The notes below the pieces were generated by a model. It made no database searches and was not told where the DNA came from. It saw only the letters and a list, made by a program, of their open reading frames with translations. A stretch of DNA of 62,927 nucleotides from an archaeon. GTDB lineage: Archaea; Hydrothermarchaeota; Hydrothermarchaeia; JALTZZ01. The first letter of the stretch is position 1. Every line of letters starts with the position of its first letter. Location: positions 1-62,927 of the forward strand of contig JALTZZ010000048.1 in NCBI GenBank assembly GCA_027051165.1. The letters run 5' to 3'. Both the position numbers and the translations under genes were made by a program. Of this stretch, positions 40,339-54,688 are shown one piece after another.

Positions 40339-41343
40339 TTACAGCTTTCTTTTAATTTTTTCTCTCGCAACCGGTAGAAGAACTGTAACTTTTGTTCCCT
40401 TATTTACTTCGCTTTCAATCTCGATTTTTCCTTTATGCATATCAACAATTATCTTTGAGATGTAGAGCCCCATGCCAACTCCAGGGAACCTTCTCGTTGT
40501 CTTGCTTTCAACTTGATATAGCGGATCAAATATGTATTTAAGCTTTTCTTTCGGAATTCCTATGCCAGTATCCTCTATTATTACTTCGATATATCCGTTT
40601 TCAAGAATCCTCCTTCCCAAATGCCTGTGCTTAACTTTTATATAAACCTTTCCGCCTTCTTTATTGAATTTTATTGCATTTGAAAGGATTGATGTAAAAA
40701 GGAACACAAGTTTACTTTTATCTCCCTCTATATTTGGTAAATTTTCCTCAAAATTTTTATGTATCTCTATTTTCTTGTTCAAACTCAAAATACTAACGTT
40801 TTTTAAAGATTCTTCAATGATATCAACTATATTAACATGTTCTTTTACTAAACCTATAATATTTCTCTTACTTGCTTCAACAAGGCTTTTTGCTGTATTT
40901 TCAAGTCTTGCAATGTTTGATTTCATTTTCTCTAAGACTAAGGGATCAACAGTTCTTTCATCGAGAAGTTCGCTCACAAGCATCTTTAAAACGGCAATCG
41001 GTGTTAGAAGTTCATGCGAGACGTTTGATAGAATATTATCTTTACGCTTAAGAATCTCTTCGATTTCATCTCCAAGATCTCTAACTAATATAAGCTTTTT
41101 ATCTTCAAAAGGTATCGTTATAAATTCTTCATCAACAAAGATTAAGCTTAGTGCTTTGTCTTCATATTTAAAATTAAAAATTGGACACTCAGTTCTGCAT
41201 TCGTGTTTATCTTCTTTACATTTTAGTTTTGATCGTATAACGTTTTCATTTCCAAATACAACATCCATATCGCAGTTCTCATCGATGAACACTATAGAAA
41301 GAATGTCGCAGAGAGATTTTGAGAAAGCTTTGAAGTATTTCAT
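40339..41343 (-). CDS. Soluble sensor histidine kinase with a cysteine-rich N-terminal domain
   Basis: This is a 334-residue kinase with no membrane helix. The phosphoacceptor His110 is in NVSHELLTP. The catalytic domain has the N box LSNAIKFNKEGG, G1 EDTGIGIP and G2 PGVGMGLYISK. The first 90 residues are a sensor with Cys12, Cys24, Cys42, Cys49 and Cys53; the last three sit in KCKEDKHECRTECPIF, a likely metal or redox site. No response regulator gene is nearby. It could sense metal, arsenic or redox state inside the cell (inference). Confidence 0.85.
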   Translation of the reverse strand: MKYFKAFSKSLCDILSIVFIDENCDMDVVFGNENVIRSKLKCKEDKHECRTECPIFNFKYEDKALSLIFVDEEFITIPFEDKKLILVRDLGDEIEEILKRKDNILSNVSHELLTPIAVLKMLVSELLDERTVDPLVLEKMKSNIARLENTAKSLVEASKRNIIGLVKEHVNIVDIIEESLKNVSILSLNKKIEIHKNFEENLPNIEGDKSKLVFLFTSILSNAIKFNKEGGKVYIKVKHRHLGRRILENGYIEVIIEDTGIGIPKEKLKYIFDPLYQVESKTTRRFPGVGMGLYISKIIVDMHKGKIEIESEVNKGTKVTVLLPVAREKIKRKL

Positions 41344-41424
41344 ATCGTAATATTTTCTTTGTGTGTATATAAAGGTTTTATGTTTCGAAAGAATACAACT
41401 TTTAATATATATGTAATTAATAAA

Positions 41425-42093
41425 TTATTCTTTAATTATTATACCATCTCTTATTTTTAACTGTCTCTTCGCTCTCTTCCCTATTTCTGGGTCGTGAGTA
41501 ACAATTACTAATGTTTTTCCTTCTTCTTTATTTAATTTCTCAAGAATTTCGATAATTTTTCTTCCTGTTTTTGTATCAAGGTTTCCGGTTGGTTCATCTG
41601 CAAGTATAACTTCTGGATTGTTAGCAAGAGCTCTCGCAATCGCAACTCTCTGTTGCTCTCCACCACTAAGCTCCCTTGGCTTGTGGTGCTCCCTACCTTC
41701 TAAGCCAACCATTCTTAGAAGTTCTTTCGCTCTTTTAATTCTCTTTCTTCTATTAACGCCAGCAAACCACATCGGCAGTGCTACATTTTCAAGAGCAGTT
41801 AAGGTTGGTATTAGGTTGAACTGCTGGAAGACAAATCCTATTTTTTTAAGTCTTATCTTAGCAAGTTCTCTATCACTTAGTCTGCTTATATCTCTGCCAT
41901 CTATGTAAACCCTTCCTTTTGTTGGTCTGTCTAAGCCACCAATTATGTTCATTAAAGTGCTTTTTCCGCTACCACTTGGACCCATAATTGATATATAATC
42001 TCCACTCTCTATTTTGAGGTTTATACCTCTAAGAGCAACAACCTTTGCTTTGCCAAGCTTGTATATCTTGTGAACGTTTTCAAGCTTTATCAT
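41425..42093 (-). CDS. ABC transporter ATPase, LolD/MacB type
   Basis: This is a 222-residue ATPase with Walker A GPSGSGKST, Q-loop FVFQQFNLI, signature LSGGEQQRVAIARAL and Walker B VILADEPTGNLD. Family members drive FtsX/MacB-type permeases for lipoproteins, peptides or cell-envelope work. It starts in an ATGA overlap with the CARDB gene. No FtsX-like permease lies downstream in the same operon (a histidine kinase follows), so the membrane subunit must be elsewhere or has been lost. Confidence 0.92.
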   Translation of the reverse strand: MIKLENVHKIYKLGKAKVVALRGINLKIESGDYISIMGPSGSGKSTLMNIIGGLDRPTKGRVYIDGRDISRLSDRELAKIRLKKIGFVFQQFNLIPTLTALENVALPMWFAGVNRRKRIKRAKELLRMVGLEGREHHKPRELSGGEQQRVAIARALANNPEVILADEPTGNLDTKTGRKIIEILEKLNKEEGKTLVIVTHDPEIGKRAKRQLKIRDGIIIKE

Positions 42094-43331
42094 TCTTCAA
42101 TTTCCCTTCTTTTCTTCACTTTTCTATAAATTAGATATATTAACAGCAAGACTGCAATAAGCAGAGGTATGGAGTATGACGATTCTCCTTTCTTAGATCC
42201 CACATATATAGAAAACTCTTTTTCATCTCTGTATAAATTTCCAACTTCATCGTAGTATGTTAAGATAACTCTGAAGGTATAGCTTCCGCTTGTTGCTGAA
42301 TTATCAACCTCTAAATCATATATAGCTGTTGCTGTATCGTCTGGCTCTAAGCTTCCCAAGAATGACACCTTCTCTCCGCTAAACGCCTTAGGATATTTGA
42401 GCACAGCTTTTATTGATTTTGCTTTCTGCTTCCCTATGTTCTCAAACTGAACAGAAAGTGTAAAAGAAGAGCCCGGGAAAAGCTTTTCTCCTTTCTCTGG
42501 AGAAATATCTACACTTGATATCTCAAGCTTCGGTTTTTCTTTCTCTGTTACGTATATTTCAAAGTTCTTTTTTTCTTCAATAAACCTTTCATCGTATCTA
42601 TATCTAACAATTAGCGTAAAGTTGTATAATCCGGATTTTATATCTTTGGAAGTCTTTAAATTAAAAATTGCTGTTGCTCTCTTATCTCTTTCTAAGCTTC
42701 CCAAGAATTCTTCATTCTCACCGGTAAAGTATTCTGGAACTATGAGCTCAAGCCTAACACCTTTCGCTGTATCTTTACCTATGTTTTCAATTGTTATCTG
42801 GAGGGAGAAGTCCTGATCAGGATATATCAAGCTTGGTGATGTATTAATACCGGCGAGAACAATTTTTGGTTTTCCAACGAATTTTAATCCTATGTAGAGA
42901 ATTTTTTCTTCAGTTTTCATGTTTGGATTCTTATATCTAACCTTTATAGGTATAAGGTAGCTTCCGGGCTTTACATCGTTTACGTGAATAGAAAATGATG
43001 TTTCTATCTCTTCTTCTTGAAGAACTGCACCAAAGAACTGTTCACTTTCAAAGGCTTCCTTCGCTCTTTTTGTATAAAAAATACTTGATCCTATAGGTGT
43101 TATATAATTGTTTTGAACAATTTCAACTTCTACTTGCGTAGCAAAGTCTGTTCCTAAATTTTTTAATGTTATATTTAAAATTTCATCTTCTCCTATATAG
43201 AGCTCCTCAGGTTCAACATCTACTACAACAAAATTTACATTGCTTCCCTGTGCATAAACCGAGCAGAAGCAGAGCACAGAAAAGATAAATATAAACATTC
43301 CTATGCTCAAGGGTTTTACCGAAGTTTCCAT
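42090..43331 (-). CDS. Secreted, membrane-anchored CARDB-repeat protein
   Basis: This is a 413-residue protein with a signal peptide (about 1-27, ending VYAQ), three repeated Ig-like CARDB/NEW3 domains of about 115 residues (each with an (I/V)..(I/V)(K/T)N(L/I)G.(D/Q) phrase: ITLKNLGTDFA, ITIENIGKDTA, VQFENIGKQKA) and a C-terminal membrane helix (385-402) followed by KKRR. It should stand on the outer face of the membrane. Coupling with the ABC ATPase (ATGA) suggests a substrate-capturing or envelope role. Archaeal surface proteins of this build often pair with MacB-like systems. Confidence 0.85.
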   Translation of the reverse strand: METSVKPLSIGMFIFIFSVLCFCSVYAQGSNVNFVVVDVEPEELYIGEDEILNITLKNLGTDFATQVEVEIVQNNYITPIGSSIFYTKRAKEAFESEQFFGAVLQEEEIETSFSIHVNDVKPGSYLIPIKVRYKNPNMKTEEKILYIGLKFVGKPKIVLAGINTSPSLIYPDQDFSLQITIENIGKDTAKGVRLELIVPEYFTGENEEFLGSLERDKRATAIFNLKTSKDIKSGLYNFTLIVRYRYDERFIEEKKNFEIYVTEKEKPKLEISSVDISPEKGEKLFPGSSFTLSVQFENIGKQKAKSIKAVLKYPKAFSGEKVSFLGSLEPDDTATAIYDLEVDNSATSGSYTFRVILTYYDEVGNLYRDEKEFSIYVGSKKGESSYSIPLLIAVLLLIYLIYRKVKKRREIEE

Positions 43332-43377
43332 AGCAATATTAATTAAAGATACTATCTAACAAGAAACTTGCAATAGA

Positions 43378-43443
43378 AATGTTGCCCAGCTGGAGGACCC
43401 GTGCTCATCCTGAGCGTTGCACGAGCCATGGCGGCTGGGCATT
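43378..43443 (-). ncRNA. Candidate H/ACA-type guide RNA
   Basis: This is a GC-rich island in A+T-rich flanks. On the minus strand TGCCCAGC and GCTGGGCA form an 8-bp closing stem (complement of 43434-43441 and 43383-43390). The second arm is followed directly by ACA (43382-43380). Inside, GTGC/GCAC closes an upper stem with a G/A-rich loop (CAGGATGA) that could form a K-loop. Unpaired strands of 8-11 bases on both sides would be the pseudouridylation pocket. This is the layout of an archaeal single-hairpin H/ACA RNA. It could instead be a hairpin of other function; the target is not known. Confidence 0.5.
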
Positions 43444-43449
43444 TATATA
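43442..43449 (+). promoter_or_regulatory. TATA box of thrS
   Basis: TTTATATA lies 88 bases upstream of the thrS ATG, at the edge of the H/ACA candidate. It would give a leader of about 55 bases. Confidence 0.4.
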
Positions 43450-43529
43450 GTAGAGTGGTAACGTGAGCAATTAGTTTATCAACGTTAAAAAACATTTCAG
43501 CTTAGATATTAATTTTGGAGCGTGAGAAG

Positions 43530-45389
43530 ATGAGAATGCTCTTAATTCATGCTGATTATATTAAATACGAGGCAAAGAGTAAGACAAGAATTGCGGAAGA
43601 GATAGGAGATGAACTAAAAACTCAAGGTGCTGAGAACTGCCTCGTCGCATTTATAGCCGTTGAGAGTGCTGACGAAAAGAACAAGGATTTTGTCGTTGAA
43701 AAAGCTAAAGAAGAAATATTAGACGTATACAATAGGGTTAAAGCCGATTGCATATTTATCTATCCATATGCACATCTTAGCTCAGATTTGGCTAAACCAA
43801 GCTTTGCAGTAGAGGTTTTGAGGGAGCTTGAAGATAAATTAAAAGAATATAATGTGAAAAGAGCTCCATTTGGCTGGTATAAGGCATTTGAACTAAAATG
43901 TAAAGGTCATCCTTTAAGCGAGCTTTCAAGGGTTATTGTTCCAGAAGAAGCTAAAAAAGAGAAGGAAATTGTCTCGACAGCCTTAAAAGCTGAGGAAAAG
44001 ATGAAATCATACTGGTATATACTCACACCAGAGGGCAAGCTTATAGATGCAGATGAATTTGATTTTTCAGGTTATGAGAACCTAAAAAAACTTTACGAAT
44101 ATGAAAAGAAAAAAGTTAGAACGGCAAGAGAGCAACCGGCACATATAAGAATAATGCTCGATCATGAGCTCGTTGACTATGAACCGGCAAGCGATCCGGG
44201 AAATTTGAGGTGGTATCCTAAGGGTGTTATAATAAAAAGACTTCTTGAGAGTCACGTAAGCAACATTCTCGCAGAATACGGTGCTATGGAAGTGGAAACT
44301 CCTATTATGTATGCTTTTGATCATGAAAAGCTGAGCAAATATTTGCATAGGTTTCCAGCAAGGCAGTATACTCTAAAATCCGGAGATAAAGAATACTTCT
44401 TGAGGTTTGCAGCATGCTTCGGGCAGTATCTGATAATGCACGACATGCAGATAAGCTATAGGCATCTGCCTCTAAGACTCTACGAGCTAACCCATTACAG
44501 TTTCAGAAGGGAGCAGAAAGGTGAGCTGAGTGGTTTAAAGAGGCTTAGAACGTTTACAATGCCAGATATGCACACTCTGTGCAGAGATATGGATCAGGCA
44601 AAGGAGGAGTTTAAAAATCAATACATGCTTGCAATGAAGTATATGAAAGACTTGGAGCTCGACTATGAGGTTGTTATAAGGTTCATTAAGAGTTTCTACG
44701 AGGAAAATGAGGATTTTGCAAAAGAACTTGCAAGACTTGTAAACAAGCCAATACTTATAGAGATGTGGGATGAAAGATTTTTCTATTTCGTAATGAAGTT
44801 TGAATTTAACGTTATAGACAGTATAGGAAAAGCAGCAGCACTATCTACCGTGCAGATAGATGTCGAGAACGCCGAAAGATTTGGAATAACGTTTGTTGAT
44901 GAAGATGGAAAAGAAAAGCATCCTATCCTTCTGCATGCGAGTATTAGCGGAGGAATTGACAGAAATCTCTATGCACTCCTCGAACAAGCATGGATCAAAG
45001 CTAAAAAAGAAAATAAGAAGCCAATGCTACCTATTTGGTTGAGCCCCATCCAAGTTAGAATAATACCCGTTAGCAGTGCATACTTGGAGTTTTGTGAAAA
45101 ATTGCTCAAGGAGCTTTCGAACTTTGCAAGAGTGGACTTAGATGACACAGACGATACCTTGCAGAAAAAAATTAGAAAAGCTGAGAAAGAATGGATACCA
45201 TTTATAGTAGTTGTCGGAGAAAAAGAGGTTAAGAGTGATAAGCTGAGTGTTAGAGTAAGATCAGAAAACGTAGTAAAGGAAATGACAAAAGACGAACTCA
45301 TTGAGATTATAAAGAAAGAATGTAAAGGAAAGCCTTTCAGAAAGCTTACCTTACCAAAAAAACTATCGAAAAGACCAAAATTTAGATAA
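43530..45389 (+). CDS. thrS: Threonyl-tRNA synthetase, archaeal type
   Basis: This enzyme charges tRNA-Thr. It opens [18 protein letters not shown], the archaea-specific editing domain (related to D-Tyr deacylase). The class II catalytic core follows: motif 1 [11 protein letters not shown], motif 2 in [19 protein letters not shown], and motif 3 around [18 protein letters not shown]. The C-terminal anticodon-binding domain runs from about residue 505. I choose the ATG at 43530 because homologues begin there and GGAG (43517-43520) precedes it; a TTG at 43515 is the alternative. Length 619 is normal. Confidence 0.96.
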
Positions 45390-45399
45390 AATTTTTAAG

Positions 45400-45714
45400 T
45401 TACATTTCTATCTCTCCGTTGTTTGCAAGATCCATTCAGCAAGGGAGGAAATACGCAAGGTTAGCCGAGGAAGCGGTAGATGGAAATATTTGCTAACGTT
45501 AGTGCTGGCAAATGCGATAGCTTAAGCCTTAGCTGAGCTGATAAGCTCGATTCTAACAACCTGACCGCTAAGCATGGGTATAGTGGGTAAGTAGCTCCAC
45601 CACCGTTTATTGGGCAGGAGTAGAGGGCGTCCTAACCAAGCTGCGGGGTAAGGCACCTGGGGCAAGGGTGTAAACTCCCCATGAAACCCTGCCTGTAAGG
45701 GTGGGGTAGTTCAC
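45400..45714. mobile_element. Miniature relative of the TnpB element: left and right ends without tnpB
   Basis: TTAC at 45400-45403, then CTCTCCGTTGTTTGCAAG, matches the left end at 33120. The segment from about 45590, with AGGAGTAGAGGGCG, CCAAGCTGCGGGGTAAGGC, GGGCAAGGGTGTAAACTCC and GGGGTAGTTCAC (end 45714), matches the right end at 34435-34546. About 1.1 kb of coding sequence is missing in between. The GC-rich right half is the part that in active elements forms the omegaRNA. It fills most of the 45390-45855 gap; the last 140 bases show nothing besides the next gene's promoter. Confidence 0.7.
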
Positions 45715-45855
45715 TGTTATTAATTCAAATTTTTATATTATTCTTACTTGGCACTTTTTTACGTAAGATATTATTATCTTTTAACTCCAAATACTTTTAA
45801 ACTGAAACAAAAGATTTATATTTTTAAGCCTCTTGTAAGAATATAGGTGGGGGAT

Positions 45856-54511: not shown

Positions 54512-54688
54512 TTATATTTCACCTCTAGCTTTAAGAATTTCAAGCTTGAGCTTTCTCCTATATTTTCCAAACCTATCCTCTGGAGAGAATCTTGGAGGAT
54601 GCGGGGTTACAGTATTCTCACCACAGAGCTTGCACACATCTTTAAGTGTGTAAATCTTGCATTTCTTGCAGAACTTCAAAACGCTCAT
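54512..54688 (-). CDS. nop10: H/ACA ribonucleoprotein subunit Nop10
   Basis: This is a 58-residue gene. Two CXXC-type pairs (CKKC, CKLC) make a zinc ribbon; the C-terminal part HPPRFSPEDRFGKYRRKLK is the conserved RNA/Cbf5-binding tail. Nop10 is needed for pseudouridylation by H/ACA complexes, which fits the guide-RNA candidate at 43378. Its ATG overlaps the aIF2alpha stop (ATGA at 54685-54688), and PAC2 follows 12 bases later. Confidence 0.95.
   Translation of the reverse strand: MSVLKFCKKCKIYTLKDVCKLCGENTVTPHPPRFSPEDRFGKYRRKLKLEILKARGEI

Follow-up and report, generated by a model that had tools for sequence, protein, structure and literature searches.

A short GC-rich stretch on the minus strand, between two divergent genes, raises the question of whether it encodes a box H/ACA guide RNA and, if so, which uridine that RNA would address. 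The original prediction, made on the window (the entire 62,927-nt stretch of archaeal DNA analyzed here), described a probable single-hairpin H/ACA RNA at 43378 to 43443, composed of an 8-bp closing stem followed at once by ACA, a pocket, and an upper hairpin with its loop. All of these parts are present on the minus strand, and the exact element runs from 43441 to 43380, a 62-nt sequence that reads UGCCCAGC CGCCAUG GCUCGUGC AACGCUCAGGAUGA GCACGGGU CCUCCA GCUGGGCA ACA (Table 1). We conclude that this element is very probably a true H/ACA guide sRNA with one hairpin, aimed at a uridine in helix 34 of 16S rRNA. The reading is based on the fold, the spacing, the complementarity to the 16S rRNA of relatives, same-pocket hairpins in other archaea, a base exchange that matches between guide and target, and the presence of both cbf5 and nop10. 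We further infer that the element is transcribed, assembles into an RNP, and directs modification of the organism's own 16S rRNA.

Table 1. Positions in the window of the putative guide RNA, its parts, and the neighboring or functionally related features
Feature	Position	Strand	Basis or remark
Whole H/ACA hairpin with ACA box	43380..43441	-	Fold, descriptor scan, model R2 (59.8 bits)
Lower stem, 5' arm, UGCCCAGC	43434..43441	-	8 bp with 43383-43390
5' guide strand, CGCCAUG	43427..43433	-	GCCAUG: 6 bp with 16S CAUGGC, on the 3' side of the target U
Upper stem, 5' arm, GCUCGUGC	43419..43426	-	8 pairs with 43397-43404
Apical loop, AACGCUCAGGAUGA, 14 nt, read as K-loop	43405..43418	-	Sequence; layer count 8 + 2 = 10
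Upper stem, 3' arm, GCACGGGU	43397..43404	-	Computed fold
3' guide strand, CCUCCA	43391..43396	-	CCUCC: 5 bp with 16S GGAGG, on the 5' side of the target U
Lower stem, 3' arm, GCUGGGCA	43383..43390	-	Computed fold, sequence
ACA box	43380..43382	-	Immediately 3' of the lower stem; 14 nt (8 + 6) from the pocket-closing pair
Probable thrS TATA box, ATTTATATA	43441..43449	+	By eye; abuts the 5' end of the RNA
thrS, archaeal threonyl-tRNA synthetase, divergent neighbor	43515..45389	+	PF08915, PF00587, PF03129
CARDB-domain protein gene	42090..43331	-	Domain match
nop10, H/ACA RNP protein gene	54512..54688	-	PF04135, E = 2.3e-23

Both stems are present in the minimum-energy fold, and the same stems are still optimal at 80°C. 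The internal loop that forms the pocket has 7 and 6 nt on its two sides, and the upper stem has 8 bp, with a ninth added when one pocket pair closes. The original prediction was right about the existence of a pocket but drew its strands slightly too wide, including bases of the upper stem. It had also placed the hairpin in a GC-rich patch, and the most GC-rich 60-mer of the window lies inside the element (rank 1 of 62,868; window mean GC, 36%). The folding z-score of the hairpin on its own is modest, about -2.3 for an 81-nt and for a 66-nt stretch, with 4 of 200 dinucleotide shuffles equally stable in each case. The plus strand of the same region folds with a z-score of -1.75 (11 of 200 shuffles as stable), and a plus-strand hairpin was dropped as a candidate because it has neither an ACA nor a GA stem. 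A geometric descriptor following published rules for productive folds matched once in the window and never in 40 dinucleotide shuffles, both strands included; as its parameters were set with the candidate in view, this count measures rarity and not blind prediction.

Productive archaeal folds are described as having a GA stem of 10 layers, 14 to 15 nt to the ACA, and a lower stem of 7 to 9 bp (PMC4652768). The ranges that we used for membership were 14 to 16 nt between the ACA and the pocket-closing pair and 8 to 11 layers for the GA stem. The candidate has an 8-bp lower stem with an internal loop above it, an ACA directly 3' of that stem, and the 14-nt spacing. Its guiding form, in which one pair of the computed upper stem is opened, costs 2.4 kcal/mol and consists of 8 pairs plus 2 K-loop layers (10 in all), a 6-nt 3' guide, and the lower stem of 8 bp, giving a 10/6/8 fold at 14 nt. 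The same 10/6/8 fold is listed for Pa40.2-L1932 (PMC4652768). The 3' side of the K-loop, AUGA, supplies the expected UGA/GA dinucleotide; the 5' side has AA in place of the usual GA, which would make one of the two sheared K-loop pairs A-A, and this side of the candidate is unusual.

In its plan of stem, pocket, stem, K-loop, and ACA, the candidate resembles the single-hairpin sRNAs of Pyrococcus and Archaeoglobus, with which it also shares the 14-nt spacing, bipartite pairing around an unpaired UN of the rRNA, and, if its K-loop forms as read here, a GA stem of 10 layers; it differs from them in the AA on the 5' side of the K-loop and in a lower stem of 8 bp rather than the commoner 9 (PMC4652768, PMC3608112). 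Pa19 of Pyrococcus abyssi, the guide of 16S S1017, likewise has a single H/ACA motif and addresses the same stretch of 16S rRNA, possibly the same site to judge from the coordinate; it needs a bulge to reach its 10/6/9 fold, whereas the candidate fits without one (PMC4652768). Most likely, the candidate is a further example of a known archaeal guide type, and it is the gene itself that is new.

Nop10, named in the original prediction as a sign that the machinery exists, is indeed encoded in the window, and cbf5 is found on contig C69 (TIGR00425, 480.7 bits, above the cut-off). The minimal RNP consists of Cbf5, Nop10, Gar1, and L7Ae (PMC3608112). The assembly comprises 171 contigs at an estimated completeness of 100%, yet neither a 16S nor a 23S rRNA gene of the organism is detectable in it, and the target site was therefore read from the 16S rRNA of relatives in the class. 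Of 25 genomes searched for rRNA genes, 10 had an SSU match and 8 an LSU match. The pocket fits best at 16S GGAGG-[UG]-CAUGGC, where the UG stays unpaired and the flanks form 5 + 6 Watson-Crick pairs with the pocket (arm duplex energies, -7.0 and -7.9 kcal/mol). The complementary rRNA site with a U at the pocket that the original prediction called for is therefore present in relatives, in perfect form in six of the eight class 16S genes that cover it (L034, L035, L036, L037, L038, and L041). The remaining two (L039 and L040), together with L042 from outside the class, have GGUGG, one mismatch with CCUCC; a partial 16S gene without the target region (L043) was left out of the eight. We take the target U to be E. 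coli U1052 in helix 34, presumably two bases from C1054 and close to the decoding site. Since shuffled pockets scored as high as the observed best in 54, 34, and 31 of 2000 cases for three rRNA pairs (1.6 to 2.7%), and in 164 of 1000 (16%) under looser rules that allowed guides into the stems, a null computed on two correctly oriented loci, the pairing by itself is weak and, taken alone, would be suggestive only.

More weight can be placed on hairpins elsewhere that combine the same pocket with other stems. The original prediction had proposed an H/ACA covariance search as a check. With Rfam this gave no match in the window at gathering score; at E ≤ 10, positions 43200 to 43560 had three matches, none to an H/ACA family and HgcG not among them, and four loci scanned at E ≤ 1 had no match. 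HgcG (RF00064, Pab40) has the H/ACA type in common with the candidate, but it has several hairpins and its model is longer, at 276 positions. Among 11 loci scanned (L095 and L097 to L106), weak HgcG matches appeared in two from a family of genomes that we designate f16 (L095, 1450 to 1627 on the plus strand, 29.4 bits; L101, 1410 to 1613 on the minus strand, 33.7 bits), below the gathering score of 77, which suggests that Rfam may be without a family for the guide of this group. A covariance model, R2, was built from 24 synthetic sequences in which the stems were random but complementary and the following letters were fixed: GCCATG or CCATG and CC[T/A]CC in the pocket, GA on the loop's 3' side, and a terminal ANA. 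The score of the organism's own locus under R2 is partly a matter of construction, whereas those of other genomes are not.

Across 40 genomes, R2 returned the organism's own locus, one other genome (G028; E = 9.6e-4), and one weak match (E = 0.86); the own locus was its only match at E ≤ 1 in its genome and at E ≤ 10 in the window. Across 394 genomes, searched with stricter filters and up to 13 candidates scored per genome, 13 had a match at E ≤ 1 and 10 at E ≤ 0.01. The latter are the organism's own genome and 9 of the 393 others, all in two families, f39 (G153, G187, and G290) and f16 (G070, G110, G285, G334, G217, and G200). A tenth, G028, also belongs to f16 and was lost in this run, having been found with the laxer filters of the 40-genome run. 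The resulting tallies of seven for f16 and three for f39 count matching genomes and are not fractions of either family; the weak matches L096, L106, L107, and L108 (E = 0.24 to 0.86), of which L106 is without a proper 3' pocket, were left out of these counts. A decoy model with the same stems and scrambled pocket letters, R3, had no match at E ≤ 0.01 in the 394 genomes (best, 0.07; 6 of 394 at E ≤ 1) and none at E ≤ 10 on the 12 R2 loci, and the R2 matches thus depend on the pocket. The identification as a probable single-hairpin H/ACA RNA gains support from the 16S match, the same-pocket hairpins in other archaea, and the decoy control.

An ACA end is present in all 10 R2 matches besides the organism's own, and the K-loop carries GA and UGA in all seven f16 hairpins; the three of f39 have the 5' GA but GG before the 3' arm. 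When the stems of the 12 R2 matches were aligned, 91.3% of cells were paired and double changes occurred in 15 of 16 pairs, whereas sliding the partners by one column lowered pairing to 46.6 to 48.4%; this 12-row count takes in the doubtful L106 and leans towards structure because the alignment was fitted to the model.

Guide and target can moreover be followed together. Of 17 genomes searched for the site GAGGNGGTGCATGGC, 11 have it, among them 8 of the 10 R2-positive genomes besides the organism's own, the exceptions being G070 and G285 (16S missing or different). The 5' end of the 16S gene was located upstream of it in six of the eight, and in G153 and G290 the site was taken as 16S by context. 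In each of the eight, the guide pairs over 6 to 8 bp on the downstream, CAUGGC side and over 4 to 5 bp upstream, at 14 nt to the ACA, with one mismatch in G290, whose 16S reads GGCGG. A base exchange links the two partners: 16S GGUGG goes with guide CCAC(C), and the CCUCC of the candidate fits the GGAGG present in most relatives of the class.

If the 16S gene of G217 is taken to start seven bases before TTGATCC, its target U falls at position 1004 of 1,492 nt. An H/ACA-guided pseudouridine is reported at S1004 of Archaeoglobus fulgidus, its guide being Af190 as worded in the source, and in P. abyssi the pseudouridine at S1017 is guided by Pa19 (PMC4652768). The predicted site may therefore be the A. 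fulgidus S1004 site, the two coinciding by coordinate, and f16 probably consists of relatives of Archaeoglobus, as the same 16S coordinate suggests. The hairpins of this family have the guide strand GCCAUG in common with the candidate, and five of the seven have lower-stem ends UGCCCG...GGGCAACA, close to UGCCCA...GGGCAACA in the candidate; they differ in the other guide strand, CCAC(A/C) matching GGUGG as opposed to CCUCC matching GGAGG. The likeness to the A. fulgidus guide is read from the coordinate and the f16 hairpins. As far as passages of PMC2584109 show, the 16S positions described as modified in Haloferax volcanii, four in number, do not include the target site, and passages of PMC11698992 and PMC6138745 contain no statement on it.

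Closer to the organism, no convincing counterpart was found. The best full-length match of thrS is to Candidatus Hydrothermarchaeum profundi (68%, best segment), closely followed by further records labelled Hydrothermarchaeota. R2 found no counterpart in the 22 other genomes of the class, two of the same order included; these are mostly drafts of many contigs, and R2 would overlook a guide whose pocket letters had changed. At 22 of 32 thrS loci, those of named organisms, R2 had no match at E ≤ 1, and the regions upstream of thrS were also inspected by eye at 17 loci. DNA similarity detected only the own locus in 41 genomes, 40 of them relatives. A model built from the single sequence, R1, had matches at E ≤ 5 in 11 of 121 genomes, all but the own at E = 0.16 or worse, and alignments of the best 10 of its 14 matches on 12 loci (own included) contained no convincing H/ACA RNA. 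The pattern GCCATG...CCTCC...ACA matched 30 times in 16 of the 23 class genomes, against 6 matches for a backwards control, and only at the own locus does the lower stem among these matches exceed 5 bp.

The position of the hairpin invites a different reading, namely, that it is a cis element, serving thrS or the divergent CARDB-domain gene as a 5' leader or attenuator, and no guide RNA. It sits between divergent genes, with about 49 nt separating its 3' end from the start of the minus-strand gene, and the plus strand folds nearly as stably. The original prediction placed it upstream of thrS, which is correct as to position; the RNA points away from thrS, however, and is probably not its leader, a reading that was dropped. 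A probable TATA box, recognized by eye, lies between the hairpin and thrS, which probably puts the hairpin outside the thrS mRNA. A leader or terminator would also leave unexplained why the hairpin carries an ACA, keeps the 14-nt spacing, has what reads as a 10-layer GA stem, and shares with hairpins elsewhere a pocket matched to 16S rRNA, and we regard a cis element as very improbable. The guide RNA gene and the thrS core promoter are probably arranged back to back, as judged by eye. On the minus strand, inspection by eye showed no clear TATA box 25 to 30 nt ahead of the RNA, and the guide RNA may have a weak promoter of its own or be processed from a longer transcript. Around this locus, the minus-strand row at 40339 to 43331, with an ORF resembling a sensor histidine kinase (by eye), an ABC-transporter ATPase, and a CARDB/NPCBM-associated protein, is perhaps a transporter cluster with its regulator. 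On the other side, 3' of thrS, the stretch at 45390 to 45716 (plus strand) has no convincing gene, stops in all six frames, 60-mers of up to 65% GC, and no Rfam match at E ≤ 1; it ends in CCCTGCCTGTAAGGGTGGGGTAGTTCAC, which we take to resemble the 3' end of IS200/IS605-type tnpB elements (the omega-RNA end), and may be what is left of a decayed transposon.

Some guides act on more than one target, and the hairpin might be a real H/ACA guide whose main target is another uridine, in 23S rRNA, tRNA, or mRNA, the 16S match being coincidental. The frequency with which shuffled pockets equal the rRNA score fits such a view, as does a partial 23S pairing elsewhere (score 24 versus 30; L_L045, position 777). 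Against it stand the same-pocket hairpins of two other families, which match the 16S site down to the exchanged base, and the agreement of that site, by coordinate, with a reported pseudouridine; we consider a different main target very improbable. A chance GC-rich inverted repeat or a mobile-element relic would be in keeping with a single copy, the lack of a DNA-level homologue in the 40 relatives, and the modest folding z-score, but it does not account for a descriptor absent from 40 shuffles or for agreement with the pocket and spacing rules. Because a DNA similarity search of the own genome gave a single match at E ≤ 0.001, the hairpin is not a member of a repeat family; a repeat element was dropped for this reason, and we assign chance or a relic a negligible probability.

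If the hairpin acts as a guide RNA, its K-loop would be the binding site of L7Ae, and its stems and ACA would be bound by Cbf5 together with Nop10 and Gar1. The pocket strands CCUCC and GCCAUG would then capture GGAGG-UG-CAUGGC of 16S rRNA and place the target U, U1052 in E. coli numbering, in the active site of Cbf5, where it would be converted to pseudouridine. The lower-stem ends UGCCC...GGGCAACA that the candidate has in common with five of the seven f16 hairpins suggest one ancestral RNA. It is possible, and we put it forward tentatively, that the same U1052 guide has been kept in distant archaea, a Hydrothermarchaeota-like lineage and two further families, with guide and rRNA changing together.

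A literature search, judged by titles and abstract openings, turned up no pseudouridine work on this lineage. With the stems left random and the pocket fixed, a covariance model recovers H/ACA-shaped guides that here fall below every Rfam gathering score; it connects the candidate both with hairpins of other archaea and with the coordinate of a published pseudouridine. For an uncultured lineage, this names a specific, testable rRNA modification site together with its putative guide. If the guide has indeed been kept across these archaea, it would represent guide-target coevolution at a site beside the decoding center.
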